DNA from: Actomonas aquatica
GTDB lineage: Bacteria; Verrucomicrobiota; Verrucomicrobiia; Opitutales; Opitutaceae
Assembly (NCBI RefSeq): GCF_019679435.2
Contig: NZ_CP139781.1
Coordinates: forward strand, 5,080,001-5,144,000
Length of the DNA stretch: 64,000 nucleotides
Reading direction: 5' to 3'
Part shown: piece after piece, positions 4,505-21,268 of the stretch
How the letters are laid out: every line of letters begins with the position of its first letter
Numbering within the stretch: position 1 is the first letter of the stretch
The notes under the pieces: generated by a model
Told to the model about the DNA's origin: nothing
Databases searched by the model: none
What the model saw: the letters and a program-made list of their open reading frames with translations, nothing else
Translations under genes and position numbers: made by a program

Positions 4505-4579
4505 TGGTAGCCCCGCTGGGAATCGAACCCAGATTAACGGTTTAGGAAACCGCGGTTCTATCCATTGAACTACGGGACC
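4505..4579 (-). tRNA. tRNA-Arg (anticodon CCU)
   Basis: Read on the minus strand, a full cloverleaf folds. The acceptor stem is GGTCCCG with CGGGGCT (first pair a G-U wobble) and discriminator A. The D stem is GTTC/GAAC. The anticodon stem GCGGT/ACCGT has loop TTCCTAA, giving anticodon CCT. The T arm is CTGGG-TTCGATT-CCCAG. The 3' CCA is encoded in the genome (4505-4507 on this strand). It reads AGG arginine codons. No tail-to-tail attachment duplication was seen next to it. Confidence 0.95.
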
Positions 4580-5243: not shown

Positions 5244-7250
5244 TTAGCCGATCTCGATGGTGGGGGCGAAGGGGCCGGGCGTGAGGCGAGCGCGGAAGGT
5301 GTCGGCGGTGAGGGTCCAGGTGCCGTCGGCGGAGGCGGCCTCGAGTTTGGGCGGGAGGGCTTCGCCGGCTTTGCGGGCGGCGAGGACCGTGACGACGTGA
5401 TGGCTCAGCGCGGCGGGGGCATGCACTTCGACGCAGGGAAAGTCGCCGGTTTCGGGCAGGACTTCCAAGCGGGCGAGGCGGGGCGTGGCGGAGGCGGCGG
5501 AGGACGCGACGAGGCCGTGCAGGGAGGCGGCGGGGCGGTCGAGGCGGAAGCGGGGGCCGTCGACGCTGAGGCGGGCGGCGCCGTCGGCGTTGTCGGGGTA
5601 AAAACGGGCGTCGAAGGTTTGTTCGTGGTAACGCAGTTGGATCTGGTCGAAGACCACGATCACGTCGGGTTTGGCGAAGATGACGGTGCGCAGGACCTGC
5701 TTGGCGGATTCGTTGACGACGCCGTAGGCCGCGGTGGCATCGCTGGTCCACCAGATGTGGCCATCGTGGTCGGCGTAGGCGATGAGGTTGGCGTAGGCGA
5801 GGCTCTCGTTGGTGCCGTGTTCGCCATCGACGTAGTGGTGGCCGCGACCGTCGAGCAGCACGCCGTTGTGGCCGCGGGTGAAGCGCATTTTCCAGCCATC
5901 GGTGCGGCGGTCGTAGGCGGCGCCGAGGTGGTCGTGGAGGAGGCGTTCACCGTGGATTTTGTAGATGAAGTGATTGCGGTCGGCGTGTTCGTGATTGGCC
6001 GGGGCGCCGCTCTTGAAGGCGAGGACGGCGTCGTCGGGCTGCCAGCCGCTGCGGCAGAGGACCCAGTTGAGGTCGTTGCGGTGGTTGAGCAGGCGGTCGG
6101 GGAGCGGCGCGGTGAGGACGTCGGGACGATACCAGAGAAAGTCGTAGAACCAACGCGGTTGCGCGGCGTAGGTGGCGAGGGTGCCGGCGTAGGGCGTGCC
6201 GGTGATGGTGCCGACTTCGCACACCCAGCCGGGAAACGCGCTGCCGCGGGCGTCGCTGAAGTTGACGATGTCGGCGCCGCCGTCGGGCGTGCGGCCGAGT
6301 TGCATGGTGAGCACGTAGTCGAGCATGCCGTCCCAGTTGACCGCTTGATCCCAGTCGACGTCGCCGACCAAGCGGCGGTGCGCGACGATGAAGGGCATGG
6401 CGGTGCGCATGGAGTAGTCGAGGTAGCTGAGGCCTTCGAAGTAGCTGCCGTCGGCGGAGAAGAGTTGGAGGAAACGGCGGGTGCTGGCGACGGCGGTGTC
6501 GAGCCATTGCTCGGCGCGCGGATCGTGTCCGCGCAGGGCGAGGGCGCCGAGACCGAGGGCACCGGTGGGGGCGGAGCGGAGGTTGTTGGCGCCGAGGATT
6601 TCGGGCCAGCGCTCCATGGTGAGGTCATAAAAATCGGCGTGCGCGGTGTCGAAGTCCCAGCCCTTCACGGTCTCGGGGTGGTCCATGTCGTTGACGGTCG
6701 CGAAGCAGGCGGCGCAGCCCTTGTCGGCGATGGCTTGGAGGAGGCGTTGATCGAGCTCGGGCGAGATGGCATCGCCCAACACCTCGCGGGCGTAGAGCAG
6801 GCGCACGGTGGAGTAGGAGGCGCGTTGGATGCCGAGCACTTCCTCGCCGCCGTCGCGGAAGTAGTCCCAATGCGGGCGTGCGATGATGCGCTCGATGGCG
6901 TCGAGCAGGGTGGCTTCGCGGGTGGGCGTCGGCTCCACCAATTGCACGGTGAGTGCGTGTTCGAGGGCGGTGAGCACGGTGGCGAAATCGCGGACTATGT
7001 TGCCCGAGTTTTCGAAGGTATCGAGGGCGGTCGGAATCGCGTCGGGGGCCTCGGCCTGCCAGGCGGCGTAGAGGGGTTGCAGGAGCGGGGTGCGGGTGTT
7101 GGCGCGGATGCGCGGCAGGTCGGCGGGGGCGAAAAACAGGTGGCTCGCGGAGCCGGGGGAGGACTCGGGCGCGGCCCAGGTGAAAGAGCGGGACAGCAAG
7201 GCGCCAGCAAAGGAGGCACCACCCAGACGGAGCATTTCTCGGCGAGTCAT
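5244..7250 (-). CDS. Heparinase II/III-family polysaccharide lyase, Tat-exported
   Basis: 668 residues. The N-terminus MTRREMLRLGG then ASFAGALLSRSFTWAAP is a twin-arginine signal, implying folded export. The first half (about 35-390) is the alpha/alpha-toroid lyase domain, including SASHLFFAPADLPRIRANT and FEGLSYLDYSMRTAMPFI. The second half begins with the beta-sandwich marker NHEHADRNHFIYKIHGERLL, the family's H-x-H-A-D pattern. Family members cleave uronate-containing polysaccharides such as heparan, alginate or related glycans by beta-elimination; the substrate here is not determined. Unsaturated products would suit the GH105-type hydrolase at 12109. It is divergent from gspG. Confidence 0.8.
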   Translation of the reverse strand: MTRREMLRLGGASFAGALLSRSFTWAAPESSPGSASHLFFAPADLPRIRANTRTPLLQPLYAAWQAEAPDAIPTALDTFENSGNIVRDFATVLTALEHALTVQLVEPTPTREATLLDAIERIIARPHWDYFRDGGEEVLGIQRASYSTVRLLYAREVLGDAISPELDQRLLQAIADKGCAACFATVNDMDHPETVKGWDFDTAHADFYDLTMERWPEILGANNLRSAPTGALGLGALALRGHDPRAEQWLDTAVASTRRFLQLFSADGSYFEGLSYLDYSMRTAMPFIVAHRRLVGDVDWDQAVNWDGMLDYVLTMQLGRTPDGGADIVNFSDARGSAFPGWVCEVGTITGTPYAGTLATYAAQPRWFYDFLWYRPDVLTAPLPDRLLNHRNDLNWVLCRSGWQPDDAVLAFKSGAPANHEHADRNHFIYKIHGERLLHDHLGAAYDRRTDGWKMRFTRGHNGVLLDGRGHHYVDGEHGTNESLAYANLIAYADHDGHIWWTSDATAAYGVVNESAKQVLRTVIFAKPDVIVVFDQIQLRYHEQTFDARFYPDNADGAARLSVDGPRFRLDRPAASLHGLVASSAASATPRLARLEVLPETGDFPCVEVHAPAALSHHVVTVLAARKAGEALPPKLEAASADGTWTLTADTFRARLTPGPFAPTIEIG

Positions 7251-7473
7251 GGGTCCATGGGGTTGGGCCCTGGGGCGCGGCTTGTAAATGACGGTCGGCC
7301 CGGGGCTTAAACTTTCATTTTCTTTCAGTCGCCTGGCCCGGTGTAACGGGGGCGGTGAGCGCGTGGTGGAGCGGGCCGGTGAAACTTTTGTGACGCGGGG
7401 GCGTCTGGAGGGAATAGGCTGTTCGAGGCGTGTCTCGACAATACCTGTTCTCCTTCCTTACCTCTCGTTTTCC

Positions 7474-7914
7474 ATGACTTTCTCCGATCGTTCCTCCCGT
7501 CTCCGTTCCGCTGCCACCAAGGGTTTCACGCTGCTCGAAATCATGGTGGTGCTCGCCATCCTCGGTCTGCTCGTCGCCGTGCTGGTGCGTAATGTGGGCG
7601 GCGACCTGTCGCGTGGTCAGGAGTCGGCGGCGAAGCTGTTTGTGACCGCGACGATGGAGAGCCCGTTGACGGCTTATCGTATTGATACCGGCAACTACCC
7701 GACGACGGCGCAGGGTTTGGAGGCTCTGATCACCAACCCGGGCAACGTGAAGGGCTGGCGCGGGCCGTATCTCGACAAGCTGGCGCTCGATCCGTGGCAG
7801 CAGCCCTATGAGTATCGTTTCCCGGGCCAGAAGAATAAGGGCAAATACGACCTGTTCTCCAAGGGGCCCGATATGACGGCGGGCAACGACGACGATATCG
7901 GTAATTGGGAGTGA
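7474..7914 (+). CDS. gspG: Type II secretion major pseudopilin GspG
   Basis: 146 residues from MTFSDRSSR. The frame is open further upstream, but the start after TCTCGTTTTCC places the prepilin cleavage motif 14 residues in: KGFTLLEIMVVLAILGLLVAVLV, cut after the Gly. The C-terminal half is classic GspG: GNYPTTAQGLEAL, GPYLDKLALDPWQQPYEYR and KYDLFSKGPDMTAGNDDDIGNW, the calcium-binding loop. GspG builds the periplasmic pseudopilus of the T2SS. It is separated from the other pseudopilin genes by about 5.8 kb holding two CAZyme genes, which is unusual because gspG normally precedes gspH directly. Confidence 0.93.
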   Translation: MTFSDRSSRLRSAATKGFTLLEIMVVLAILGLLVAVLVRNVGGDLSRGQESAAKLFVTATMESPLTAYRIDTGNYPTTAQGLEALITNPGNVKGWRGPYLDKLALDPWQQPYEYRFPGQKNKGKYDLFSKGPDMTAGNDDDIGNWE

Positions 7915-7958
7915 GTTGAGGTAGGCCGAGCGCTGGCTGGCGGAGGGGCAGGTTGAGA

Positions 7959-8023
7959 CGGCAGCTGAAGCAGCCGCTACGATCTGAGAGGCAGCATGGA
8001 ACGGCCGAGACGGCCGTTGCTAC
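7959..8023. repeat. Two REP-like hairpins with GTAG foot
   Basis: Hairpin one (7959-7980) is CGGCAGCTGAAGCAGCCG followed by CTAC. Hairpin two (8000-8023) is AACGGCCGAGACGGCCGTT followed by GCTAC. Read on the minus strand, each is GTAG followed by a stem-loop, the arrangement of REP elements mobilised by RAYT (TnpA-REP) transposases. The stems differ but the foot is the same. The intergenic stretch 7915-8259 contains these, further GC-rich hairpins and the purine/pyrimidine repeat at 8091; no gene was seen. Confidence 0.6.
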
Positions 8024-8090
8024 ACCAGGACGGTGTGGTGGCCGGTGCGTGTGCCGGCCGTGGGACAGGCGTCGGCGGTCTCAGGGAAAG

Positions 8091-8222
8091 CCTTCTTTCT
8101 CTTTCGTCTTTATCTTTATCTTTATCTGACGACGCGGAGCGTCGCGATGGGCGGTGGGGAGATGGCGGCTCGGCTCGGCGCGGCGGGGAGAAAGAGAAAG
8201 ATAAAGAATAAAGAGAAAGAGG
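8091..8222. repeat. Dispersed purine/pyrimidine hairpin repeat, copy 1
   Basis: A T/C-rich arm (TTTCTCTTTCGTCTTTATC and further CTTTATC units) leads to TGACGACGCGGAGCGTCG, then a GC-rich middle, then an A/G-rich arm (GGGGAGAAAGAGAAAGATA, AAGAATAAAGAGAAAGA). The arms are imperfectly complementary, so transcript or single-stranded DNA could form a long hairpin with a small internal one (CGACGC-GGA-GCGTCG). A near-identical copy lies at 13384-13512 and a partial copy at 21106-21145. Confidence 0.75.
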
Positions 8223-8259
8223 TGGGGCCGACGGGGATGCACGAAAGTGCGCGATTCGG

Positions 8260-11200
8260 TTAGCGGTTGAGCCAGAGGAGGGGCTGGGTGACGGCCATGT
8301 TGCGGCGGACTTCGAGGTTCGTCGGGTCGGGGTCGAGCTGTCGCCAGAGTTTTAAGTAGTCGGGGCGGCCGAGGCTGGCGCCGCCGAGCAGGAGGGCCGG
8401 TTGCCGGACGGGCCATGTGGTGAAATGGGCGACGTCGGCCGGATAGGGCCAGGCTTCGCGATCGGCGAGGTAGGGGGCCATGAAGGCCACGGCGGCGGCG
8501 ACGCTGCGTCCGTCAGGCAACGACCACTCCCAGAGGTTTTGTTCGGGCGTGCTGAGCAGCTCGGTGAGCAGGGCGACGTTGTCCAATTGGAAGATGGCGT
8601 AGCCGTAGGGTTTGGTGCGGACGAGTTCGCGCGGGAAGGAACCATCGGGCGCGAGTTGGCCGGGGAGGAGCACGGTGGTGAACTCGGTGCGGGCGCGGTC
8701 GAGCGCGGTGGTTTCGCCGGTGAGCGTGGCGAAGGCGGCGACCTGCAGCCAGTAGGCGACGCTGTGGTTGTTGAGGGTGGTGGCTTCGTCGCGACCGTTT
8801 TTCGAGGTGAGCATCCAGGCGAGGTAGTCGGCGAACCACTGGCGCGTCGCGTCGAGGGCGGGACTCGCGGGCAGGACGCGGGCGGCGAGAGCGACTTCGG
8901 CGAGGTGCAGTGTATCGATAATGCCAATACCGCGGCCGGGCGTGACGCCGGGGATGGCCTGGGCGAAGCGCAGGTGCGGATTCATGCGCGTGGCCGGATC
9001 GACGAAAAAGGCGTGCAGCTGCGCGGTGGCGGCGGCGGCGTAGCGGTCGTCGCCAGTGAGGTCGTAGGCGGCGGCGAGGGAGGCCACGTGGTTGCGCAGT
9101 TCGCGCATCATCAGGCGGTGGGCGAAGAAGGCGTCGGGGTTGCTCTCGCCATCGCGGCGCACGTAGGGCAGGCCGTCGGCCGTGTGGGGGTTGGGCCACC
9201 AGTAGTCGCCCATGGAGAGGAAGTCGCCGGGCTGGGCACCGGCGGTGATGGCGTGGTCGGGCAGGGCGACGCTGCGGAAGTTGATCGGCGCGGCGGCGAG
9301 GGCGGCGTCGGCGAGACGCAGGATGCGCTCGCGGTCGATCGTGGCGACGAGCTCGCGGGTCGCGGCGGGGGAGAGGGGGCGGCTTACGACGTGATCGGGG
9401 CCGGTGAGATGTATCAGCGAACTGGGGACGCCGGGGATTTCGGCGGCGGCGCTGACCACGGCGCGGCCGGCGGGCGGGAGCTCGATTTCGATCTCGGCGC
9501 GGCCGTTGGCGAACTGCACGCGGCGGGAGGCGCGGGCGAGGCCGAGGTCGGCGATGAGGCGGCCGTCACCGGCGTGGTTCCAGCGCACGAAGTCGCGGTT
9601 ATCGAGGCAGACGACGCCGTTGGCATCGAGCAACTCAACCTGAATGCGGGCGCGGCCGGGGGCGGTGGCGGGCAGTTCCTGCAGGCGCAGGTGATGAGGG
9701 GCGCCCCACGCGCGGGTCTCGTTGCGGAAGGTGAGCTCGTCGGTGTGGGTGGTGCCATCGGCGGCGGTGCCGACGGCGCGCACGTGGTTCATGCCGGGCA
9801 GGAATTTGGCCGACCAGCGCAGGCCGGCGGCGGGGAAGTCCTGGGCGTCACGGGTGCGTTTGCCGAGGGAGGTGCCGTTGAGCCAGAGTTCCACCTCGGT
9901 GCAGTTGGAGTAGACCTTGAGCCAGCGGGTGGCGTCGGGTTTGCCCCAGCGGACCGGCCAGGAGTGCCCGTAGATGCGGAGCATGGGTTCGGTGGACCAA
10001 TAGGACTGGTAGACGTAGAAAATCTCCTTGGGGGTGAGGTCGCGTTCGACGGCGCCCTTTTGGTTGACGAAGGGCACGGGGTTGTCGGGGCGCAGCGGAG
10101 TGGAGAAGTCCTTGAAGGGCCACATGGCGGTGCCGGTGAGCCAGGGCATGTTTTCCTGCTCCTTGAGGTGCCAGTCGACGAGGTCGGCAATGTAGGTCTC
10201 GGACCAGTCGCCGTCCTTGGAGGCGCGGGCGGCGCCGCCGATGCTCATGAAGTCGAGTCCACGCTCGTCGGCCGCGCCGGCGGTCTCGAGGTCGCGCAGC
10301 GGGATGTAGGGATCTTCGGCGTGGCGGCCGGCGTGGGAGTCGCCGCCCCACTCGACGTGGAGGAAGTGGGGCACGCGTTCCATCTCCTTGCGTGAGACCT
10401 CCTGGTATTCGACGAACTTGCCGCGATACCAACCGGCCCAGATGGAGGGGGAATAGACGTCGACGATGTCTTTGCAAAAATCGCAGCGACGGATGGCGGT
10501 GACGCGCGACGGGTCGAGCTCGTGGGAAAGGTTGTGCAGCTCGCGCATGTAGGTGCGGATCTTCTCCTCGTCGAACTCGGCGAAGTCGCCGGGCCAGTCG
10601 TTCTCGTTGCCCATGCCCCAGAGGACGACGCTCGGGTGGTTGAAGTGTTGGTCGATCATGGCGCGCAGCATGGCTTTGCCCTGCGCCTGGTAGGCCTCAG
10701 CGCCGAGACCACCGCGGCACCACGGAATCTCTTCCCAGACCACGAGGCCGAGCTCGTCGCAGAGCTCGAGGATGCGGCGCGACTGTTGGTAGTGGCCGAG
10801 GCGGATGAAGTTCACGCCCATCTCCTTCATGAGGCGCATCTCGCGCTCCTGCAGGTCGGGGGTCATGGCGGCGGCGAGTCCGGCGTGGTCCTCGTGGCGG
10901 TGGGTGCCGCGCAGGAGGAGGCGTTCGCCGTTGAGTTTGAAGGGACCTTTTTCAACGAACTCGAAGGTGCGCAGACCGAAGCGCGTCCAGACGTGGCTGG
11001 TGGAGCCGTCGGGCGCGGTGGCGGTGACGTCCACGCCGTAGAGGTGAGGGGAGTCGGGCGACCAGCGGTGGGCGTCGGGCAGGACGATGGTGGGCAGGGA
11101 TTGGAGATCGGTCGAGGGCGCGAGGGACTGCTGAAGTTCGGCCGCGGTGGAGCCGTCGGGGGCGACGATGCGGACGGCGAGGTGGTGGGACGCGTTGGCC

Positions 11201-12030
11201 GGATCGGCGGCGATAAAACGCAGGCGCAGATCGAGCGACCATTGGCCGGAAGTGGCATCAAAGGTCGGCGCGGCGTGGACGCGGGCGAGGCCGGCGGCGG
11301 GCAGGTAAACGAGGTGCACCGGACGGTAGATGCCGCCGTAGAGGTTGAAGTCGCTCAGGTCGGAGGGCATGGCCTCGAGCACGCGGGAATTGTCGGCGCG
11401 CACGGCGAGCGGGATGCGGCCGGCGGGGATGCGGTAGTCGGCGGCGGGCAGGTCGGGCAGGGCGCTGGCGCGGTAGGCGGCGACGGCGGCGGTGATGTCG
11501 ACGATGAACTCGTCGTAGCCGCCCTCGTGGGTGTCGACGAGTTGGTCGCCGATCCAGATCTGGGCGCGTTGGCCGACGCCCTCGAAGTGGAGCAAAGTGC
11601 GGCCGCCCGGGTGGGGGTTGGCGATGTCGAGGGTGGTGCGATACCAGGCCGGGCCCTGGTAGTAGGGCACGTCGGGGTCGACGGCGTCGGTGGCGTTGTA
11701 GCTGTGGGGCAGGGTGACCTGCGACCAGACGGGGAGTTGGAGGGCACGGCTGTCGCTGCGCAGGGTTTCCCAGATGCCGCCGAGGTCACCGCGCACGAAG
11801 TCCCAGCCGGAGGTGAGGGTGGTTTGGTCGGCGAAGTCGCGGGGCGGCGTGGTTGCGGGGATCGCGATGGAGGCCGCGGAGGACGGTGTCGCGGCGGCGA
11901 GCGAGGGGGCGGATGCGGCGCTCAGCCCGAGGAGGGCGAGGGCGAGGAGGAGGGAGAGGCGGGGGGCGAAAGACCGTGGGAACCGGGCACGCGGCAGCAC
12001 AGAGGGGGAGGGCATGGGGTCGGGGTTCAT
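8260..12030 (-). CDS. GH2 glycosidase fused to C-terminal alginate-lyase-like domain, secreted
   Basis: About 1,256 residues from MNPDPMPSPSVLP; an alternative start 33 bases upstream is less good for the signal peptide (LSLLLALALLGLSAASA). Residues about 50-380 hold the GH2 sugar-binding and Ig-like domains. The TIM barrel (about 385-700) has HRHEDHAG, NFIRLGHYQQSRRILELCDELG, the acid/base Glu in WGMGNENDW (E476) and the probable nucleophile in HVEWGGDS (E560). From about 900 to the end is an alginate-lyase superfamily domain (PF05426-like): GDYWWPNPH, then ATTLNNHSVAYWLQ with the NNH motif, then DGSFPRELVRTKPYGYA. Two catalytic activities in one chain are therefore likely. A beta-linked, uronate-containing glycan is the inferred substrate. 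It is divergent from the GH105 gene across 78 bases. Confidence 0.82.
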   Translation of the reverse strand: MNPDPMPSPSVLPRARFPRSFAPRLSLLLALALLGLSAASAPSLAAATPSSAASIAIPATTPPRDFADQTTLTSGWDFVRGDLGGIWETLRSDSRALQLPVWSQVTLPHSYNATDAVDPDVPYYQGPAWYRTTLDIANPHPGGRTLLHFEGVGQRAQIWIGDQLVDTHEGGYDEFIVDITAAVAAYRASALPDLPAADYRIPAGRIPLAVRADNSRVLEAMPSDLSDFNLYGGIYRPVHLVYLPAAGLARVHAAPTFDATSGQWSLDLRLRFIAADPANASHHLAVRIVAPDGSTAAELQQSLAPSTDLQSLPTIVLPDAHRWSPDSPHLYGVDVTATAPDGSTSHVWTRFGLRTFEFVEKGPFKLNGERLLLRGTHRHEDHAGLAAAMTPDLQEREMRLMKEMGVNFIRLGHYQQSRRILELCDELGLVVWEEIPWCRGGLGAEAYQAQGKAMLRAMIDQHFNHPSVVLWGMGNENDWPGDFAEFDEEKIRTYMRELHNLSHELDPSRVTAIRRCDFCKDIVDVYSPSIWAGWYRGKFVEYQEVSRKEMERVPHFLHVEWGGDSHAGRHAEDPYIPLRDLETAGAADERGLDFMSIGGAARASKDGDWSETYIADLVDWHLKEQENMPWLTGTAMWPFKDFSTPLRPDNPVPFVNQKGAVERDLTPKEIFYVYQSYWSTEPMLRIYGHSWPVRWGKPDATRWLKVYSNCTEVELWLNGTSLGKRTRDAQDFPAAGLRWSAKFLPGMNHVRAVGTAADGTTHTDELTFRNETRAWGAPHHLRLQELPATAPGRARIQVELLDANGVVCLDNRDFVRWNHAGDGRLIADLGLARASRRVQFANGRAEIEIELPPAGRAVVSAAAEIPGVPSSLIHLTGPDHVVSRPLSPAATRELVATIDRERILRLADAALAAAPINFRSVALPDHAITAGAQPGDFLSMGDYWWPNPHTADGLPYVRRDGESNPDAFFAHRLMMRELRNHVASLAAAYDLTGDDRYAAAATAQLHAFFVDPATRMNPHLRFAQAIPGVTPGRGIGIIDTLHLAEVALAARVLPASPALDATRQWFADYLAWMLTSKNGRDEATTLNNHSVAYWLQVAAFATLTGETTALDRARTEFTTVLLPGQLAPDGSFPRELVRTKPYGYAIFQLDNVALLTELLSTPEQNLWEWSLPDGRSVAAAVAFMAPYLADREAWPYPADVAHFTTWPVRQPALLLGGASLGRPDYLKLWRQLDPDPTNLEVRRNMAVTQPLLWLNR

Positions 12031-12108
12031 AATTATTCCGGGGCAAAACCTTGCGTTCGTCATAGCGGAGTCAGTAGAAAAATTCGAAATTGAAAGCCGG
12101 TTTCATAT

Positions 12109-13224
12109 ATGAATATTAATGCCCCTGCCCCCACTCGTGTTTCTTCGGTTTCTTTTGGTCGTCTGCGTGCGCGACTGTGTCTGATGGCGCTGGGTCTGTG
12201 GCTCGGCGCGGCGAGTGTGAATGGGGCAGCGGAGACGACGGACGCGGTGATGCGTCGGGTTTTCGACTGGCAGGTGGCGAATCTCTGGAGCACGCAGCAG
12301 CCGGTGGAGCATCGGTGGGGTCCGCGGGGATGGGTGCACGGGGCGTTTATGACCGGCGTGATGGAAGCTTACCGCAGCACGGGCGATGCGGCGTATTTGG
12401 ACTACGCGGTGGCGCGGTCGGAGGGGAACGGCTGGGAATTGGGACCGCGACTGGAGCATGCCGACGATTATGTGATCGGGCAGACTTACCTGGAGTTGCA
12501 TGCGATGGGCGTGGCGTCGGCGGAGTTGGGACCGTTGCAAGCGCGGGTGGATGAACTGTTGGCGGATGAGCACGTGGGGCGGGAGCTGTGGTGGTGGTGT
12601 GACGCACTTTACATGGCGCCGCAGACGCTGGCGAAGTTGGCGGCGGAGACCGGGGAGGGGCGTTATCTGGAAACGATGGACGCGTGGTATTGGGACACGC
12701 ATGCCCTGCTTTATGACGAAGCGGAGGGGCTGTTTTTCCGCGATAAGCGCTTCCTCGATCCGGAGGATGGGAAGAAGGTCTTCTGGAGTCGGGGCAACGG
12801 CTGGGTGATCGCGGGCTTGGCGCGTTTGCTGGATGTATTGCCGGCGGAGCATCCGACGCGGGCGCGATATCTGGCGTTGTATCGCGAAATGGCGGCGGCG
12901 TTGGTGAAGGTCCAGCCGGCTGACGGACTGTGGCGGGCGAATCTGCTGCACCCGGAGGCCCCGCATGGGGAGGCGAGCGGCAGTGCGTTTTTCTGCTACG
13001 CGCTGGCGTGGGGCATCAATCAAGGGGTGCTCGACGCGGCGGAATATCGTCCGGCGGTGGAGCGCACGTGGGCGGCGTTGCTCGAGTGCGTCACGCCGGA
13101 GGGCAAGCTGGGCTGGGTGCAGCCGATCGGTTTTGCGCCGGACGAGTATGATGGGACGACCTGGCAGGAGTATGGCGCCGGGGCGTTCTTGGCGGCCGGG
13201 TCACAGGTGCGGTTGTTGGAGTGA
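12109..13224 (+). CDS. GH88/GH105 unsaturated uronyl hydrolase, secreted
   Basis: 371 residues with an N-terminal signal (LRARLCLMALGLWLGAASVNGA). It is an alpha/alpha-barrel enzyme related to YteR/YesR: GWVHGAFMTGVMEAYRSTGD, HADDYVIGQTYLELH with the catalytic-type Asp, WWWCDALYMAPQTLAKLA, KVFWSRGNGWVIAGLARLL and GSAFFCYALAWGINQGVLD. The family hydrates the delta-4,5 unsaturated uronic acid left by polysaccharide lyases, releasing the next sugar. This fits the lyase-type domain of the divergent neighbour and the heparinase-like gene upstream. Rhamnogalacturonan-type substrates are typical, but the exact substrate is unknown. There is no Shine-Dalgarno before the ATG (TTTCATATATG). Confidence 0.87.
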   Translation: MNINAPAPTRVSSVSFGRLRARLCLMALGLWLGAASVNGAAETTDAVMRRVFDWQVANLWSTQQPVEHRWGPRGWVHGAFMTGVMEAYRSTGDAAYLDYAVARSEGNGWELGPRLEHADDYVIGQTYLELHAMGVASAELGPLQARVDELLADEHVGRELWWWCDALYMAPQTLAKLAAETGEGRYLETMDAWYWDTHALLYDEAEGLFFRDKRFLDPEDGKKVFWSRGNGWVIAGLARLLDVLPAEHPTRARYLALYREMAAALVKVQPADGLWRANLLHPEAPHGEASGSAFFCYALAWGINQGVLDAAEYRPAVERTWAALLECVTPEGKLGWVQPIGFAPDEYDGTTWQEYGAGAFLAAGSQVRLLE

Positions 13225-13338
13225 TTGAGGCCGCGCGCGTGGCGGTGAGGGGCGTGCCTGAGAGGTAGGGGGCTGTGAGGCAGGGCGTTTTTTAACGCAA
13301 AGAGCGCGAAGGACGCAAAGGAAGGCGGTGGGGAGATG

Positions 13339-13356
13339 GGGCTGGCGAGCCAGCCC
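13339..13356. repeat. Perfect 8-bp stem hairpin
   Basis: GGGCTGGC-GA-GCCAGCCC lies downstream of the GH105 gene. It sits in the gene-free stretch 13225-13708, which also holds a fragment with CGCAAAGAGCGCGAAGGACG and the large repeat at 13384. It has no T-run after it, so it is not a standard terminator. I see no gene in this 480-base stretch beyond a 20-codon open frame at 13638. Confidence 0.5.
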
Positions 13357-13383
13357 GTTAAAAGGGGAGCCGCTAGGGTCAGG

Positions 13384-13512
13384 CTTCTTTCTCTTTCGTC
13401 TTTCTCTTTATCTTTATCTTTATCTGACGACGCGGAGCGTCGCCAGGCGCGGTGGTGGGGAGGTGGCGGCGCGGCGGGGAGAAAGAGAAAGATAAAGAAT
13501 AAAGAGAAAGAT
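13384..13512. repeat. Dispersed purine/pyrimidine hairpin repeat, copy 2
   Basis: Near-identical to the copy at 8091-8222 and in the same orientation: a T/C-rich arm, then TGACGACGCGGAGCGTCGC, a GC-rich centre and an A/G-rich arm (GGGGAGAAAGAGAAAGATAA). It has one additional CTTTCTCTTT-type unit in the left arm and a shorter centre. The two copies form a direct repeat flanking the GH2-lyase and GH105 genes, exactly between gspG and gspH. Confidence 0.75.
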
Positions 13513-13708
13513 AGGAGGGGCGGGGGGGGGGCTGGAGGCGGGGTGAAACCTTTGGGCGGTGGGGGGCGTCGTAGAGGGGGTGCGCTGGTTGAGGCCTTTC
13601 TCGACATCGGCCGGGGCGCGAAACTTACTGCTCGCTCCATGTCTCTTCCTGCCCGCCCCCACTGGACGAATCGCTCGGCTTTCACGCCGCGGGGCTGACG
13701 CTGCCATC

Positions 13709-14239
13709 ATGCTTTCCGCGTTCCCGGCCAGTTCCCGTCCGTCCCGTGTCCGTCGTGGCTTCACGCTGCTGGAGATCATGGTCGTGATCGCGTTGATCGG
13801 TTTTCTGGCGGCGGTGCTGGCGGTGGGCGCGTCGACGATGTTGCGCGAACGCAAGGTGCTGCCGGAGGACGTGGCGTGGGAGGCAATTCGCAAGGCGCGG
13901 GAGTTTGCCCTGCTGCACGAGACCGAGGTCTGGCTGAGCTGGGACAATGAGGAACGGGTCTTCCGGGCGAGCACGGCGGCGGGTTCGGAGACCTTTCCGG
14001 TGCCGGAGGAGATGGACTTTGATCTCGAATTTTTGGGCACCAGCAAAGGCGGGCGCACCATCATGATCGGGGGGCGTTTGCTGGAGGCAGGGCCGATCGA
14101 CGGCGTGCGGTTTTTTGGCGACGGCACCTGCACGCCGTTTCGCGTGCAACTCGTCGAACGCGGCGTGGATCCGACGATTCTGGAGGTCGATCCGTGGACC
14201 TGCGCACCGGTGCTGCGCAACAAGGAGGACGGTTTCTGA
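13709..14239 (+). CDS. gspH: Type II secretion minor pseudopilin GspH
   Basis: 176 residues from MLSAFPASSRPS; the open frame extends upstream, but this ATG places the prepilin motif at residue 17 (RRGFTLLEIMVVIALIGFLAAVLAV). After the hydrophobic helix, a region with VLPEDVAWEAIRKAREFALLH and beta segments (EVWLSWDNEERVFRAS, VRFFGDGTCTPFRVQLVE) fits the GspH/FimT family. It is a minor component of the pseudopilus. It starts a tight cluster gspH-I-J-K-L-M: its stop TGA overlaps the next ATG as TGATG. Confidence 0.85.
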   Translation: MLSAFPASSRPSRVRRGFTLLEIMVVIALIGFLAAVLAVGASTMLRERKVLPEDVAWEAIRKAREFALLHETEVWLSWDNEERVFRASTAAGSETFPVPEEMDFDLEFLGTSKGGRTIMIGGRLLEAGPIDGVRFFGDGTCTPFRVQLVERGVDPTILEVDPWTCAPVLRNKEDGF

Positions 14240-14715
14240 TGTCGGCCGTGCGACGCAGAAACGACGCGGGGTTCACCCTGCTGGAAGTGATGGCGGCGAT
14301 GGTCATCGTGTTGATGGCGGCGATCGTGTTGGCCGGCGCATACATGAACGTCTTGCAAGGTTACGCGCACGCGGAACGGGCGACGCGGGTGAATGCCGAT
14401 GTGGCGTTTGCGCGGGAGATTCTGTTCCACATCGCCGACTTGGAGCAGGTGGAGGAGGGCGGCGATTTTCAGACGGCTGATGGGCGCAACGTGGAGTGGC
14501 GGGCGGTGGTATTACCGACCAACGTGGCCGACCTGTTTGACGTGCGTTTCGAAGTGCGGGTGCAGGGGGACGCGCAGCACGACGATGAGGAAGTGGTGGA
14601 GGAATTTCGCTTGCTGCGGCCCACGTGGTCGGAGGACGACGAGCGCGACAAGTTGCGTGAAGAGTCGCGGCAACGCATCGAGGAGTTTCTGCGGGATCGG
14701 GAGGCGCGACGATGA
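14239..14715 (+). CDS. gspI: Type II secretion minor pseudopilin GspI-like
   Basis: 158 residues from MSAVRRRNDAGFTLLEVMAA, with the prepilin cleavage site after Gly11 and a hydrophobic helix (MVIVLMAAIVLAGAY). The rest contains ATRVNADVAFAREILFHIADLE and a charged C-terminus. The assignment to GspI rests on the order H-I-J-K and the GFTLLEVMAAM signature typical of GspI; the soluble part is divergent. It overlaps gspH by 1 base and gspJ by 4 (ATGA), suggesting coupled translation. It would form part of the pseudopilus tip. Confidence 0.8.
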   Translation: MSAVRRRNDAGFTLLEVMAAMVIVLMAAIVLAGAYMNVLQGYAHAERATRVNADVAFAREILFHIADLEQVEEGGDFQTADGRNVEWRAVVLPTNVADLFDVRFEVRVQGDAQHDDEEVVEEFRLLRPTWSEDDERDKLREESRQRIEEFLRDREARR

Positions 14716-15356
14716 GACGGCGCGGTGGTTTTACATTGCTGGAGCTGATGGTCGCGCTGGCGCTGGTGGCGCTCGTGATCGTGGGGCTCAACACCTTCAT
14801 TTTTTCGATGAGTGAGCTGTGGGGGCGCGGGCGGGATCAGCGGCTCTTCGATCAGCACGTGCGGGCGGTGACGCGGTTTTTGGAGCAGGAGTTGCGGGGA
14901 GCTTCGCTGCCGCCGGCGGTGGGGATCGGGCAATACGCGGTCGAAGCGGCCGAGGTGGAGGTTGAGTTTGGTCGGCGGGCGGAGCTGATCACCTTTGGGC
15001 TGCGCGAAGGCAGTCGGATTCTGGAGTGGCCGGAGCGGCCGTTGCCAGACGTGTGGTGCGCGTTGGAAGTGCGCCGCGACGAGGGGTTGGTGCTGTATTG
15101 GCAGTCGGCGTTGGAGGAGGACTTCGACAATGAAGCGCCGCGCGAGATGGTGCTCACGCCGCTGGTGACGAAGCTCAGTTACGATTATTACGACGCGGAG
15201 TTTAATCGGTGGGAGACCGAGGAGCTGCTGCAACGCGGCGACGACCGCGAGTTGCTCACGCCGACGCGCTTGCGGCTCACCTTCACCTACAAAGACCGCG
15301 AGGTCGAAACCCTCGTGCGCCTGCCTGCGCTGGGCAAAGGCCTGCCGGCATTCTGA
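14712..15356 (+). CDS. gspJ: Type II secretion minor pseudopilin GspJ-like
   Basis: 214 residues. The start MRRRGGFTLLELMVALALVA has the prepilin motif at residue 6 and a hydrophobic helix. Downstream, AVTRFLEQELRGASLP is the R-x-x-x-x-L-x-x-x-L-R type helix expected in GspJ, followed by beta-rich LITFGLREGSRILEW, VWCALEVRRDEGLVLYWQS and LVTKLSYDYYDAEFNRW. It ends with RLRLTFTYKDREVETLVRL. Position and length match GspJ. It begins inside the stop of gspI and is followed after 3 bases by gspK. Confidence 0.85.
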   Translation: MRRRGGFTLLELMVALALVALVIVGLNTFIFSMSELWGRGRDQRLFDQHVRAVTRFLEQELRGASLPPAVGIGQYAVEAAEVEVEFGRRAELITFGLREGSRILEWPERPLPDVWCALEVRRDEGLVLYWQSALEEDFDNEAPREMVLTPLVTKLSYDYYDAEFNRWETEELLQRGDDRELLTPTRLRLTFTYKDREVETLVRLPALGKGLPAF

Positions 15357-15359
15357 GGT

Positions 15360-16592
15360 ATGGACACGCCACGCCTCAGTTCAGACTCGGCAAGGTCGCG
15401 ACCGCGAACGCGCGGATCGGTGCTCGTGATCGTGCTGGTGACGATCGTCTTCGCGACGACGGCGCTGCTGCTGTTCATGGAGAAAGCCAGCACCGATTTG
15501 ATGGTGCCGGTGCGCGATGCGGATCGGCTGCGGTTGCGGCAGGAAGCCTACTCGGCGATGGAGACCACGCTGGCGGTGTTGGTGGATTTTAAGGAAGCGC
15601 TGGGCGGATTGCACAGTCCGGCGGAAGGTTGGGCGGAGCCGCTGGAATGGATTGGCTACGAGCCACCGGAAGGCATGGAGGTGGAGGTCATCTTCGAGGA
15701 TGAGAGCGGCAAAATTTCCATCTCGCGGCTGGATTTCCAAACGCTCTACGACCTCTTCATCAACTGGGGGCGCACGGAGGACGAAGCCGAGTTGTGGGCG
15801 GATGCGCTGATGGGGTGGATGCACGAGGATTACGAACCGCGCTCCTTCAACGCGCCTGAGGCCGACGACTATGAGCGCGGCGAGATGCCCATCGTGCCAC
15901 CGGGTCGGCCGATCCGCAGCTTTGGCGAGTTGCGTGCGATCGATGTGATCCGCGAGGAGTGGTTCGACGAGAACGGGTATCCGAACGAGCACGGGCGGCG
16001 GTTTGCGGCGGCGGTGTCGTTGTTTGATTTTGCCCGCACCAATGTGAACTCGGCGCCGGGTCAGGTGCTCGGCGCGATCGGGCGCTACGACCTGCAGCAA
16101 CAGGAAATGATGGAGGACTATCGGCGCGGCGCGGGCGTTTATCGGGGCAACGGCAACGGCTACTTCACCTCGACCGACGAGTTGGAAGGCGTGTTTGGCA
16201 GCTCGGCCGGGGGGCAGGATTTTGGTGTGGAGATTCAGGCCTTGCGCGTGATGGTCACGGTCAAACAGGGCGTGAGTTCTTATCGACTCACGACGGTGAT
16301 TTCGCCCAGCGGCGGGGCGCGGATCTTGGCAGGAGATCCCTTGCCGCGCAAAGAATCGGACCTGCAGCAGGGCGGGCCTGGCGAGGCCGAGGCGGCGGAG
16401 GATGCCACCGATACGGCGGGCGAAGGCGGTGGCAGCTCCAGCGGTCAACGCCACTCGGCGGCGGAACTGGCGGCGGCCGAAGGCGACGAATCGGAGATCC
16501 CTGATATCGAGTATCCCTTTACACTGTTGGAGATTCGCGAGATTGATGCCCCGCCGTCCTTGGCGGAAGCTGGCCGCTCGCCGGAGATATAG
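15360..16592 (+). CDS. gspK: Type II secretion pseudopilus tip protein GspK
   Basis: 410 residues. GspK type: no standard GFTLxE, but RTRGSVLVIVLVTIVFATTA after a basic leader, as in GspK where the fifth-position Glu is missing. The soluble part has EDESGKISISRLDFQTLYDLF, DEAELWADALMGWMHEDYE and the diagnostic FARTNVNSAPGQVLGAIG. Family proteins cap the pseudopilus and bind calcium. The C-terminus has a Gly/Ser/Glu-rich linker (AEGGGSSSGQR-like) and a further tail (EYPFTLLEIREIDAPPS) beyond the core, longer than usual. It lies in the gspH-M operon. Confidence 0.87.
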   Translation: MDTPRLSSDSARSRPRTRGSVLVIVLVTIVFATTALLLFMEKASTDLMVPVRDADRLRLRQEAYSAMETTLAVLVDFKEALGGLHSPAEGWAEPLEWIGYEPPEGMEVEVIFEDESGKISISRLDFQTLYDLFINWGRTEDEAELWADALMGWMHEDYEPRSFNAPEADDYERGEMPIVPPGRPIRSFGELRAIDVIREEWFDENGYPNEHGRRFAAAVSLFDFARTNVNSAPGQVLGAIGRYDLQQQEMMEDYRRGAGVYRGNGNGYFTSTDELEGVFGSSAGGQDFGVEIQALRVMVTVKQGVSSYRLTTVISPSGGARILAGDPLPRKESDLQQGGPGEAEAAEDATDTAGEGGGSSSGQRHSAAELAAAEGDESEIPDIEYPFTLLEIREIDAPPSLAEAGRSPEI

Positions 16593-16596
16593 ACCT

Positions 16597-17793
16597 ATGC
16601 CCTCTCTTTCCTCACGCTTTTCGGTTCTGAAGACGCGACCACGCTCGGTCGTGTTGTTGCCGGACCATCGCTTCTTCGTGCGTTCGGTGCCGGTCTCGCG
16701 CGACGTCGAAGCGGGCACCGAGCGCGAACAGATCGAGCTCGCCCTCGAAGCCATGGCGCCGTTCCCGCTCAGCCAGCTCTACTGGGGCTACTGGACCAAG
16801 GCCGGCTGCGAGCGCGCGCTGGTATTTGCCGCCTACAAAAAACGTTTCACCGCCGACGCGACCGAGGACTGGGCGGAGGCCGAATGGGTGGCGCCGCGTT
16901 TCGGCGCGCTGCTGGCGAGCGAAGCGCCGGCTCCGGCCACGACGTGGATTTTGCGCAGCGACGAAGGGCTGACCGCGCTGCACTTTGGCGATGAGAGTGG
17001 CGTGCCGACCCGCGTGACGTCGGTGGAGCTGAGCGACGAAGCGACCGAGACCCAAATTTCCGCAGCCCGCGAACACCTCATCAAAACCTGCGGCGGTAGC
17101 CGCAGTGTGGAGGACATCGACGAACTCGAAGTGGATCCCGGTCAACCAGGCGACGACGCGCTCGACATCCGCCACGGCGCGGCGAAGGCCGAGTTGAGTC
17201 TAGACCGCGCGCAACGTCTCGACGTGCGCGACCAGGACGAGCTCTCGGCGCGGCGACGGGCGCGGGTGCGCGACACCTGGGCGTGGCGCACGGTGGTGGC
17301 GGCGCTGGTCGTGCTGCTGTTGTCGGCGCTGGGCGAAGCGACTTTATTTGGATTGGAACTGTGGCAAAAAGGCCGCCGTGCGCGCGTCGCCGCGCAGACG
17401 CCGATTGTGAACGAAATCGAGACGGCGGAGCGGCTCGCATCGCGCATCGAAGAACTGCGCACGCAGCGCCTGCGGCCTTTCGAAATGATCGCGCTCGTGG
17501 ATCAGCCGCGGCCGGAATCGATCGTGTTTTTGGAGACGCGGGCGATCGGGCTCTACACGATGGAAATCGAGGCCGAGACCGACAATCAGGCCGACGTGAA
17601 TGTTTACATCAACGCCCTGCAGCAGCTGGCCGGCACGGAGTCGGTCGAGTCGCTCGGGCTCAATGCGCGCGGCGCGCGGGCGACGCTCACGCTGCGGGTG
17701 AATTTCTCGCCGGACGCCTTCGATACGGCGGCGCCGCCGCCGCCCGAGGAAGCGATGCCGCCGCCGGCGAGTGAAGAGGAGGTGTCGGTATGA
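16597..17793 (+). CDS. gspL: Type II secretion inner-membrane protein GspL-like
   Basis: 398 residues from MPSLSSRFSVLKTRPRSV, following gspK by 4 bases. The N-terminal cytoplasmic part (about 1-225) has VVLLPDHRFFVRSVPVSR and REQIELALEAMAPFPLSQLYWGY, an actin-like fold remnant as in GspL/PilM. A single membrane segment follows (about 229-250; VVAALVVLLLSALGEATLFG). The periplasmic part contains a coiled stretch (IVNEIETAERLASRIEELR) and a ferredoxin-like segment (YTMEIEAETDNQADVNVYINALQQL), like PilN/GspL. The tail is Pro/Glu-rich. The assignment leans on position and topology. It would link the GspE ATPase to the membrane platform. Confidence 0.75.
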   Translation: MPSLSSRFSVLKTRPRSVVLLPDHRFFVRSVPVSRDVEAGTEREQIELALEAMAPFPLSQLYWGYWTKAGCERALVFAAYKKRFTADATEDWAEAEWVAPRFGALLASEAPAPATTWILRSDEGLTALHFGDESGVPTRVTSVELSDEATETQISAAREHLIKTCGGSRSVEDIDELEVDPGQPGDDALDIRHGAAKAELSLDRAQRLDVRDQDELSARRRARVRDTWAWRTVVAALVVLLLSALGEATLFGLELWQKGRRARVAAQTPIVNEIETAERLASRIEELRTQRLRPFEMIALVDQPRPESIVFLETRAIGLYTMEIEAETDNQADVNVYINALQQLAGTESVESLGLNARGARATLTLRVNFSPDAFDTAAPPPPEEAMPPPASEEEVSV

Positions 17794-18320
17794 GAGCTTG
17801 GTTCATGGGCAAACACGCCCGGGAAAAGTTTTTGTTGCTCGGCCTGTTGGTCGCCGCGGCGGTGCTGTGGGCGAATGATCTGACGCAGCGGCTCGGCACG
17901 ACGGCGCGCGAAGTGACGGTGCTCTCGAGCAACCTCCAGACGCAGCAGCAGTGGTTGGACAACCGCGAGCGCATCGAAGCCGAAGCGCGGGCCGCGGTGG
18001 AGGATCTCGACAGCTCGCGCACCTTCAACAGCGTGGCGCTCTCGGCAGAGTTGAGCACGATCGCGGAGCAGACCGGCATCGCGGAGACGTTGCGTTCCAG
18101 TGCGGCCGGCACGCAGCAAACGGCGCAGTTCTCGGTGCACCAAGTGGAGCTCACGCTCACGCGGGTGCCGTGGGAAAATCTTCTGCAGTTTTACGAAGCG
18201 CTGTCGCAGCGCGCGCCCTACATCAGCATCGAGCAGTTCCGTTTGTTTTCGGTGCGCAGTGATACCTCGTTGCTGAATGCGCAGTTGCTCGTATCGTCGG
18301 TCGAAATCACGACCCCTTAG
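17790..18320 (+). CDS. gspM: Type II secretion protein GspM-like
   Basis: 176 residues. The start overlaps the gspL stop (ATGA). There is one N-terminal membrane segment (KFLLLGLLVAAAVLWANDL), then a coiled coil (REVTVLSSNLQTQQQWLDNRERIEAEARAAVEDL) and a small ferredoxin-like domain (AQFSVHQVELTLTRVPWENLLQFYEALSQRAPYISIEQ). This topology matches GspM/PilO, partner of GspL. The sequence is divergent, so the name rests on topology and position. Confidence 0.72.
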   Translation: MRAWFMGKHAREKFLLLGLLVAAAVLWANDLTQRLGTTAREVTVLSSNLQTQQQWLDNRERIEAEARAAVEDLDSSRTFNSVALSAELSTIAEQTGIAETLRSSAAGTQQTAQFSVHQVELTLTRVPWENLLQFYEALSQRAPYISIEQFRLFSVRSDTSLLNAQLLVSSVEITTP

Positions 18321-18800: not shown

Positions 18801-18912
18801 GGGTGCGACGTGGGCCCGAGGCGGGGCACTGAGGCAAGCGGTTGGCGATTCGCGGAAAAGAGACCTTGCGGCGGCACCAACACGGCCAACGGTGGTCTGC
18901 CTTCCTCCATCC

Positions 18913-20976
18913 ATGAAACGCCCCGAATTTCGCTTCGCCCTCCTCTCAGCAGCCCTCGCGCTGGCCACCGGTTTGACCGCTCAGGATCGTCCGCTGCCGA
19001 CTGGCGCCGTGCCCGTCGTCTCCTCCGCGATCCCTGATCAATCGGGTCAAGTGGGTGGTGCCACGGTCTCCGTCGACCTGCGGGAGCATCTTGATCTGAA
19101 CACGGAGCGCACCGGTTTTGTGCGCTTCGATACAACCTTTGGTAAGCTCGACGTGGAGCTGTTGCCGGATCACGCGCCGCTGAACGCGGCCAACTTCCTG
19201 ACCTACGTGCGGGCAGGGCACTACGATGGCACCATCATTCACCGCACGGCGTTTTTTGATGCGCAGGACAACCTGCCGGAGATCGTGCAGGGCGGCGGTT
19301 ACACGCCGGAAAACCCGCCGCAGTATAAAACGCCCAACGATCCGGTGGTCTTGGAATACAGTCACCCCAACGAGCGGGGCACCCTGGCCGCAGCGCGCAC
19401 GCAGGTCGCCGATTCCGCCACCTCGCAGTGGTATTTCAACACGTCGGACAATACCACGGGTCTCGGCCAAACTGACGGCCAAGGCGGCTACAGTGTGTTC
19501 GGCAAGACGGTGGGCTCCGGTATGGCGGTTGTGGATACGATGGGCCTGGTGAACACCTTTGCCTACAATACCATTCTGACCGATTTGCCGTTGCGTTTCT
19601 TCAGCGGTGGTCCGCTGACGGAGCAGAACTTCGTTAACATTTTTTCGGTTTACGAAGTGCCGCTCTACCCGGCGGCGGCGGGCGATGAGGCCGTGCTCAA
19701 TTTCAGTGCGACCAGCTCCGATGAAAGCGTCGTGATGGTGACCGTCGATGGCTCAAACCTCATTCTGACACCGGTGAGCGCCGGCAATGCCACCATCACC
19801 GTAGCGGCGGAAACCATCAGTGAGGATCGGGTGGAAGACAGCTTTGTCTTCGCGTCGACGGGTCTGGGAATCGCGCAGCAACCGCAGAGCCAGGATGTGA
19901 GCGCGGGGGCGAGTGCGACCTTCACGGTCGATGCTCCGGCGGCCAATGGCACCAACACCTACCAGTGGTATGTCTTCCGTTCCGGGATGGCGGAGCCGGC
20001 GGTGATCGCGGGTGCAACCGGTGCGTCCTACACGGTGAACAACGTGCAGGCGGCCAACATGGGTGCTTACTTTGTGCGGGTGACCAATGGCGGTGACACG
20101 GTGCAGTCCGACGCCGCTCTGCTCACGCTCACGGGCGGCACCAGCCGCCTCTCCAATCTCTCGACCCGCGGTCGGATTCCGGCCGGTGGCTCGCTCACGC
20201 CGGGCTTCGTGCTGACGGGCGACGGCAACAAGCCGCTCGTGGTGCGAGCGGTGGGACCGACCCTGATCGACTTCGGCCTGACGGCCGGCTTGTTGGACCC
20301 GACGATGGACATCATCCCGCAGGGTCTGAGTGAATCCGTCGTAAGCAACGACAACTGGGGCGACGCGGCCAACGCGGCGACCTTGGTGACGACCAGCAAC
20401 CAGTTGGGCGCGTTCCCGCTGACGGCGGCCTCGCTCGACGCGGCTCTGCTGACCGATGTGGCGTTGCCCAACAGCAACAACAACCGCGGCTACACCGTGC
20501 GTATCCAGTCCACGGATGCGGCGGCCTCGGGCATCGCCCTGGCGGAGGTTTACGATCCGGAAGCACTGGGGGCGGCGACGCGCCTGGTGAATGTGTCGGC
20601 GCTCGGTTACTCGGGCACCGGTGATGACGCACTGGTCCCGGGTTTCGTGATCGAAGGTTCGGGGGCCAAGACGATGTTGATCCGCGTGGTGGGTCCGTCC
20701 CTGGAGCAGTTTAACGTGGGGGGGCGCATGGCTGATCCGCGCCTGACGATCGTGCCGCTGCAGCAAAGCTTCGCGGTGGCGGCGAACGACAACTGGGGTG
20801 GCACCGATGCGCTCAAGACGGCGTTTGGCACGACGGGCGCGTTCAGCTTTTCCGGTGACGCGTCGCTCGACGCCGCGGTGCTGGTGCGGTTGCCGCCGGG
20901 TGGTTACACCGTCGTTGTGGCGGGCGCGGCGGGTGGCACCGGTCAGGTGCTGGTCGAGGCCTACGACGTGCAGTGA
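18913..20976 (+). CDS. Secreted cyclophilin-type peptidyl-prolyl isomerase with Ig-like domain
   Basis: 687 residues from MKRPEFRFALLSAALALATG, with a signal peptide and pyrimidine-rich leader CTTCCTCCATCC. A cyclophilin domain spans about residues 70-220: GFVRFDTTFGKLDVELLPDHAP, NFLTYVRAGHYDGTIIHRT, GGGYTPENPP, SHPNERGTLAAART, SQWYFNTSDNT and YSVFGKTVGSGMAVVD. A linker is followed by an Ig-like domain (about 310-410; TYQWYVFRSG, NMGAYFVRVTN). The C-terminal half holds two copies of a beta-rich unit (RLSNLSTRGRIPAGGSL, LVVRAVGPTLIDFGL; LVNVSALGYSG, LIRVVGPSLEQF) common in secreted Verrucomicrobia proteins. It could help fold exported proteins; the link to the adjacent T2SS is inferred. Confidence 0.83.
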   Translation: MKRPEFRFALLSAALALATGLTAQDRPLPTGAVPVVSSAIPDQSGQVGGATVSVDLREHLDLNTERTGFVRFDTTFGKLDVELLPDHAPLNAANFLTYVRAGHYDGTIIHRTAFFDAQDNLPEIVQGGGYTPENPPQYKTPNDPVVLEYSHPNERGTLAAARTQVADSATSQWYFNTSDNTTGLGQTDGQGGYSVFGKTVGSGMAVVDTMGLVNTFAYNTILTDLPLRFFSGGPLTEQNFVNIFSVYEVPLYPAAAGDEAVLNFSATSSDESVVMVTVDGSNLILTPVSAGNATITVAAETISEDRVEDSFVFASTGLGIAQQPQSQDVSAGASATFTVDAPAANGTNTYQWYVFRSGMAEPAVIAGATGASYTVNNVQAANMGAYFVRVTNGGDTVQSDAALLTLTGGTSRLSNLSTRGRIPAGGSLTPGFVLTGDGNKPLVVRAVGPTLIDFGLTAGLLDPTMDIIPQGLSESVVSNDNWGDAANAATLVTTSNQLGAFPLTAASLDAALLTDVALPNSNNNRGYTVRIQSTDAAASGIALAEVYDPEALGAATRLVNVSALGYSGTGDDALVPGFVIEGSGAKTMLIRVVGPSLEQFNVGGRMADPRLTIVPLQQSFAVAANDNWGGTDALKTAFGTTGAFSFSGDASLDAAVLVRLPPGGYTVVVAGAAGGTGQVLVEAYDVQ

Positions 20977-21105: not shown

Positions 21106-21145
21106 GGGGGAGAAAGATAAAGATAAAGAATAAAGAGAAAGATGG
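21106..21145. repeat. Partial copy 3 of the purine-rich repeat arm
   Basis: GGGGGAGAAAGATAAAGATA followed by AAGAATAAAGAGAAAGATGG. It matches only the A/G-rich right arm of the repeats at 8091 and 13384; the left arm and centre are absent. It sits between the cyclophilin gene and gspF, so copies lie at both internal breaks of the T2SS cluster. Confidence 0.65.
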
Positions 21146-21168
21146 GGGGGCGGAGGGGCAGCGTTAGC

Positions 21169-21268
21169 GCGAGCAAGCTCGCGGCCTACGTGGAGGGTTC
21201 GGCCGCGCACTGTAGGCTGCGAGCCCTGGTCGCCTCTGGCGCCGCCGTAGGCGGGTAAACTTGCTCGC
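21169..21268. repeat. REP-like cluster with GTAG feet
   Basis: Three units. 21169-21189 is GCGAGCAAGCTCGCGG then CCTAC (minus orientation). 21212-21233 starts GTAGGCTGCGAGCC. 21247-21268 starts GTAGGCGGGTAAACTTGC. Opposed units share GTAG feet, like BIMEs. They fill the gene-free stretch 21048-21300 between the terminator and the gspF stop. Confidence 0.6.

Follow-up and report, generated by a model that had tools for sequence, protein, structure and literature searches.

The stretch of DNA studied here comes from Actomonas aquatica (GCF_019679435.2, contig NZ_CP139781.1, positions 5,080,001-5,144,000 of the forward strand); it is 64,000 nt long and is referred to as the window, in whose coordinates positions are given. 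The genome itself is designated G000, with C1 as its main contig, and the genomes compared with it carry G numbers of their own. At the focus of the analysis (7,474-14,239), two enzyme genes lie within a T2SS gene cluster, and the surrounding features are as follows (strand given where one applies).

4505-4579, minus strand: tRNA-Arg (CCT), upstream of gspG
5244-7250, minus strand: heparinase II/III-like (oligo-alginate-lyase-like) gene (Pfam PF07940, PDB 3a0o), between tRNA-Arg and gspG
7367-7476, plus strand: P, the gspG promoter region, with TGAAAC, GCGTC and CTCGACA blocks and TCGACA 39 nt ahead of the ATG
7474-7914, plus strand: gspG, major pseudopilin (PF08334)
8089-8222: palindrome copy 1, full-length, T/A-rich, 40 nt beyond the stop of the fusion gene
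8260-12063, minus strand: fusion of GH2 (beta-glucuronidase-like) and Alginate_lyase PF05426, 1267 aa (Pfam; PDB 6d7j, 3nfv)
12109-13224, plus strand: GH105/GH88 unsaturated glucuronyl hydrolase-like gene (PF07470, PDB 4ce7), divergent from the fusion
13384-13512: palindrome copy 2, full-length, direct with copy 1, 162 nt beyond the GH105 stop, of unusual polarity
13533-13641, plus strand: P', putative duplicate of the gspG promoter region, with the ATG at 13639 as its end, 77% identical to P
13639-13698, plus strand: 19-codon ORF begun by the duplicated ATG; gspG homology of its codons not significant
13709-14239, plus strand: gspH, first gene of the detached gspH-I-J-K-L-M unit (TIGR01708 match below the cut-off, prepilin motif)
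14239-18320, plus strand: gspI, gspJ, gspK, gspL and gspM in ancestral order, gspL and gspM assigned by position and congener-locus matches, not by Pfam
18892-20976, plus strand: cyclophilin-Ig gene, in line with the T2SS operon and present in G001 and other relatives
21106-21145: lone palindrome arm at a convergent junction (arm match 21119-21142)
21301-26509, minus strand: gspF, gspE and gspD (Pfam)

The major pseudopilin GspG, the ATPase GspE, GspF and the secretin GspD of the T2SS are present, with Pfam matches above the cut-offs, and gspH is 54-61% identical to gspH of seven congeners. Set beside the T2SS operon gspG-H-I-J-K-L-M with its separate gspF-E-D genes, the cluster has its components and keeps the G-to-M order, but gspG is severed from gspH-M by 5.8 kb and does not lie directly before gspH. 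The initial annotation had described this separation by a GH2-lyase fusion and a GH105 gene, and both Pfam and the gene positions confirm it; the Pfam domains of GH2, of the PF05426 lyase and of GH105 all exceed the curated cut-offs. No integrase or transposase was found in the 19 frames scanned with Pfam between 2562 and 26509. GC content is 69.0% in the fusion, 64.5% in the GH105 gene and 65.2% in the window, and composition is uninformative on origin.

A survey of 76 genomes, including that of A. aquatica, recovered gspG in 73 and gspK in 72. Same-contig, same-strand gspG/gspK pairs number 65 and come from 64 genomes, the other 12 of the 76 having none. The two genes lie 1625-2430 bp apart in 64 of the 65 pairs, and A. 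aquatica alone departs from this spacing, at 7448 bp. Outside its own family, which has intact pairs, 25 families of the order were sampled; intact pairs occur in 15 of these, and the remaining 10 yielded no pair on one contig. The stretches compared from 20 relatives, the seven congeners included, leave no space for an insert between gspG and the genes downstream, and in six of the seven congeners the gspG stop is followed by the gspH start after 0-21 nt, as counted by hand from the sequences; in the seventh, G006, gspH has no clear start. Intact gspG-gspH junctions, which had been proposed as a check, are found in close and distant relatives alike, and the same split was looked for in distant relatives and not seen. 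Among the genomes measured the split is private to this species, and the earlier suggestion of an insertion into a once-intact cluster is supported.

A further break had been placed before gspF, marked by a partial copy of the palindrome. Here the lone arm is real (21119-21142), but the supposed break is a convergent junction common to relatives. In 13 of the 20 relatives gspF falls outside the stretch; among the seven in which it was seen, six (G001, G011, G013, G023, G046 and G047) have the G-to-M operon convergent with F-E-D, the arrangement found here, and G020 has the two consecutive on one strand. Since it is common to six of seven, the convergent junction is old, though not universal.

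At the opposite end of the operon, 8 of the 21 scanned stretches carry a tRNA-Arg(CCT) upstream of gspG, a count that becomes 7 of 20 relatives when A. aquatica is left aside; the stretches of G002, G003, G005 and G007 end at contig ends close to the T2SS genes. From the tRNA to gspG there are some 70-250 nt in G047, G004, G006 and G029. In G001 the interval holds a DUF7948 gene and here the heparinase-like gene, which has no match at E ≤ 1e-3 in the relatives' T2SS stretches, and in G003 a GH2 gene lies upstream of gspG. Given how near the tRNA stands to gspG in G004, G006, G029 and G047, extra genes may collect there, and the 5' end of the T2SS may be a place where genes accumulate, a pattern drawn from few genomes. 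When a tRNA-Arg fragment was sought as attachment site, everything in the window beyond the tRNA itself scored at E 0.14 or worse.

The two inserted genes were not found in close relatives at the E-values given here, yet are present in other Opitutaceae. The fusion is absent at E ≤ 1e-60 from all seven congeners when the best candidates, up to eight per genome, are scored, the exception being a GH2-only match of 34% in G002, and at E ≤ 1e-60 the GH105 gene was likewise found in none of the seven. A search of 252 Opitutaceae genomes, A. aquatica included, in which up to two best candidates were scored per genome, returned at least 13 matching genomes at E ≤ 1e-250. Among the matches listed, the fusion occurs in 5 of the 251 other genomes (G011, G035, G200, G183 and G260, the last with a match that starts at residue 409, at a contig edge), and the GH2 part alone is matched in at least seven other genomes, again among up to two best candidates in each. 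A histidine kinase gene lies 3′ of the fusion in G011, G035, G200 and G183 (cut by the contig end in G183), and a LuxR-type response regulator comes after the fusion in G011, G035 and G200; in G260 the kinase is seen as a 95-residue piece only and no regulator was found. The GH105 gene belongs to the same gene run as the fusion in two of the five genomes, G011 and G035. Compared with these two loci, the fusion of A. aquatica is 67-68% identical over its full length and its GH105 gene 66-67% identical, whereas the enzyme genes are divergent here and co-directional there, and no kinase/regulator pair adjoins the fusion here. The best kinase match elsewhere in the genome, at C1:5310559-5312619, has one internal stop and is 42% identical to the fusion-associated kinase. 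An origin of the cassette from elsewhere in the same genome, with a kinase/regulator pair, was dropped on account of this low identity.

By sequence, the fusion matches a beta-glucuronidase (6d7j) and an alginate lyase (3nfv), and the GH105 gene matches an unsaturated 3S-rhamnoglycuronyl hydrolase (4ce7); because of these matches, the candidate substrate of the enzyme pair is likely to be a uronic-acid polysaccharide. T2SS substrates are usually encoded away from the T2SS genes, and the adjacency of enzymes and T2SS is therefore weak evidence for export.

Ahead of gspH, the sequence at 13533-13641 appears to duplicate the promoter region of gspG and is a putative promoter. The P and P' regions align with a local score of 90; 500 shuffles reach 60 at most, and gene starts elsewhere in the fetched stretches, 305 in all, 58 at most. 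For the non-coding promoter part only, the score is 69 against a maximum of 54, with 0 of 1000 shuffles as good, and 79 of 103 aligned bases (77%) are identical. A profile built from the gspG leaders of the seven congeners, and containing no sequence of this genome, detects the gspG leader at E 7.4e-19 and 13540-13786 at E 2.8e-11, the next match being at 0.8; the scan covered 424,530 of 6,109,182 bases, namely the window and stretches picked for holding palindromes, and gspH's own prepilin codons may contribute to the second match. A promoter-only profile ranks the same two places first (1.3e-5 and 0.0017; next 0.3), and the gspD-E-F unit has no match to the gspG leader profile. The most conserved blocks, TGAAAC, CGTC and CTCGACA, are largely invariant across nine aligned leaders, and TCGACA (at 13601 in P') stands ahead of the ATG by 38 nt in P' and in all seven congeners and by 39 nt in P. 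When all nine sequences are aligned together, P' shares 55% identity with P, which makes it no closer than the congener leaders (52-61%); the placement of P' in the tree of these nine leaders is unsupported. The 19-codon ORF does not resemble the first codons of gspG significantly (98 of 1000 shuffles as good), and nothing of the gspG body persists ahead of gspH. About 23% of the aligned positions are not the same in P and P', so their duplication would be old and its ends blurred.

Known dispersed palindromes of bacteria include the REP/BIME, ERIC and MITE-like elements. The palindrome beside the enzyme genes resembles these in being short, mostly intergenic, present at 46 loci and patchy among relatives, and differs in its arms of ∼33 nt, which are A/T-rich and built of AAAGA units, and in a strong bias to positions just 3′ of stop codons. 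That direct copies of one dispersed hairpin repeat lie beside the insert, as first described, is borne out, the copies being 81-84% alike. A 24-nt arm, searched at ≤3 mismatches, has five matches in the window (expected 0.00) and 55 in this genome. Arms were found in 17 of the 76 genomes (37 in G005, 34 in G004, 27 in G024, 17 in G034 and 10 or fewer in each of 12 others) and in none of the remaining 59. Copy 2 folds as DNA with a z-score of -8.6 and copy 1 as RNA with -4.9; the arm before gspF folds no better than chance (-1.03).

The 46 loci were counted in the fetched stretches of this genome, window included, which had been fetched because they hold copies. Thirteen of them lie between convergent genes, where such spacers make up about 10% of intergenic bases. 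A stop codon occurs within 60 nt on the arm-predicted side at 29 of 46 loci and on the opposite side at 5 of 46, with 9.6% for a random intergenic control. These counts use our own codon-model gene calls, from which GH105, gspI and part of gspJ were lacking; the missed genes were added by hand for the stop-codon polarity count, and the convergent-gene count, made without them, misclassifies copy 2 as divergent. Copy 1, beside the fusion, obeys the gene-end polarity, and copy 2 before gspH and the gspF arm do not. The palindromes are probably a dispersed gene-3′-end element, forming terminator-like or mRNA-end structures. Their location would fit a Rho-independent terminator; a terminator search placed one weak site over copy 1 and found 4 sites in the region, where shuffles gave 5.2. 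Along the chromosome their polarity is mostly minus below 3.25 Mb and mostly plus above 3.8 Mb (with exceptions, among them 4385047 and 4094492), which apparently reflects the direction of the genes.

Copies 1 and 2 are mutual nearest neighbours at 81% identity, with modest support (0.776), and they have the highest raw spacer score of 78 pairs, but only the fourth by z-score. Another direct sister pair, at C1:3901140-3904550, is 94% identical and 3.3 kb apart, with the likeness stopping at the element edges. Of two copies compared for synteny in all, the one at 3129355 sits where synteny is broken, and the genes on either side of the full copy at 3136585 remain collinear in G001, G006 and others; a palindrome copy thus need not mean a rearrangement.

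Of the genomes measured, none but this one has 5.8 kb with a divergent enzyme pair separating gspG from gspH, and gspH is here preceded by a copied gspG promoter region; we infer that one duplicating event made both the split and P'. The old P-gspG-H-I-J-K-L-M unit was probably divided by this event, leaving gspG and gspH-M as separate units with sister promoters. The ancestral unit would have been cut in the lineage of this species, either by homologous recombination that integrated DNA carrying P-gspG and the enzyme genes, or by a tandem duplication with subsequent loss of the second gspG, and the product would be P-gspG-enzymes-P'-gspH. With P' before gspH, the minor-pseudopilin and platform genes would not have lost a promoter of T2SS type, which could have allowed the secretion system to persist. 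The palindromes would have arrived with the DNA or settled later in the two new spacers, rather than acting as agents of insertion. No target-site duplication was seen, 7900-8092 sharing no word of nine or more bases with 13225-13386 or 13515-13715.

If P-gspG were foreign, gspG should have a history distinct from that of gspH-M. The nearest counterparts of gspG are those of G004 and G005 (77-78% and 75-76%); for gspH, J, K, L and M the nearest is G001, which G006 equals or follows for K and M, and for gspI it is G007. When the gspG alignment was first tested against the topology of gspH-M, the AU p was 0.026. The placement was not significant with protein (0.07), nucleotides (0.46) or codon positions 1+2 (0.11), and a foreign gspG was dropped. 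A more speculative version of the split by duplication, which we regard as possible though doubtful, has the cassette and the T2SS leader moving together: P-gspG and the enzymes would have integrated by homology at the resident leader, giving one regulon with two sister promoters, the tRNA-Arg/gspG end would be a landing site for carbohydrate-degradation genes in the genus, and the palindromes would be a mobile 3′-end element copying itself locally onto new gene ends.

The initial annotation had instead proposed recombination between the hairpin repeats, for example a circle entering at a repeat already present in the gspG-gspH junction, which would leave the cassette between direct repeats. 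The direct orientation and mutual kinship of the flanking copies, the raw spacer score, the existence of another close sister pair (3901/3904 kb) and the polarity of copy 2 are all in its favour. However, the repeat is absent from the junction in all seven congeners, whether sought by eye or by arm search, and six of them have only the 0-21 nt gap; it marks gene 3′ ends genome-wide, it occurs at 3136585 between collinear genes, and the gspF junction that had counted as a break is shared. Nor does such recombination account for P', and of the marks of a composite element, neither a repeat at the empty site, nor a target duplication, nor a transposase or integrase was found at the locus. The analysis does not support this mechanism, and we consider it improbable. 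Much the same low standing is given to an illegitimate insertion of the cassette after which gspH evolved or recruited a promoter separately, P-like because it answers to the same regulator or sigma factor. TGAAAC, CGTC and CTCGACA do look like functional promoter or operator elements, but the likeness of P and P' runs over about 105 bp, spacers too, with a matching distance from box to ATG, and neither the 305 other gene starts, none above 58, nor the gspD-E-F unit offers a comparable match.

It is also conceivable, although unlikely, that gspG is what moved: the enzymes would have landed between tRNA-Arg and P-gspG, a duplicate P-gspG would have arisen on their far side, and the old gspG would have been lost, with P' left behind. 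P' fits the leftover of an old gspG leader, and the tRNA-Arg/gspG interval is short in four relatives, with extra genes here and in G001 and a GH2 gene upstream in G003. Such a course requires a duplication and a loss that spared nothing of the gspG body, the gspG tree fails to separate a mobile copy, and the insertion hot spot rests on few genomes. That the split is ancestral and was mended in every other lineage is extremely improbable, with 64 of 65 pairs intact, from the family itself and from 15 of the 25 further families sampled in its order.

Gene-block evolution, including operon splitting and the entry of foreign genes into conserved operons, is the topic of an earlier study (PMC4481853). 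The split preferred here, by duplication, is like operon splitting of this kind in that a conserved block is broken by unrelated genes in one lineage, and differs in that the downstream half bears a copy of the promoter region of the upstream half. Among titles and abstract openings of the literature on palindromes in Opitutaceae and Verrucomicrobia, on the T2SS of Opitutaceae and on insertions into T2SS operons, no such arrangement appears. The locus offers a clean case in which foreign enzyme genes would have come to lie inside a secretion-machine operon, which need not have been silenced by them, the second promoter copy being a testable trace of the event. It also carries a caution: an insertion bordered by direct repeats need not have been caused by them; those of this family mark gene ends genome-wide.

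Some further features of the window and genome may be recorded. Other REP-like palindromes lie at 7980-8060, 21166-21247, 44970-45051 and 61926-62007, some with a GTAG-type edge by eye, and Y1_Tnp has nine matches in this genome. A related-looking sequence at the PPIase-gspF junction of G001 was set aside, its fold not being significant (z -1.27). Adjoining palindrome copy 2, periodic AACGCAAAGAGCGCGAAGGACGCAAAGG-type sequence occupies 13280-13330 and presumably resembles another dispersed motif. Finally, a very long open frame of about 4,800 codons (our own gene calls) extends over 28865-43408 and contains repeats spaced 153 and 255 nt.
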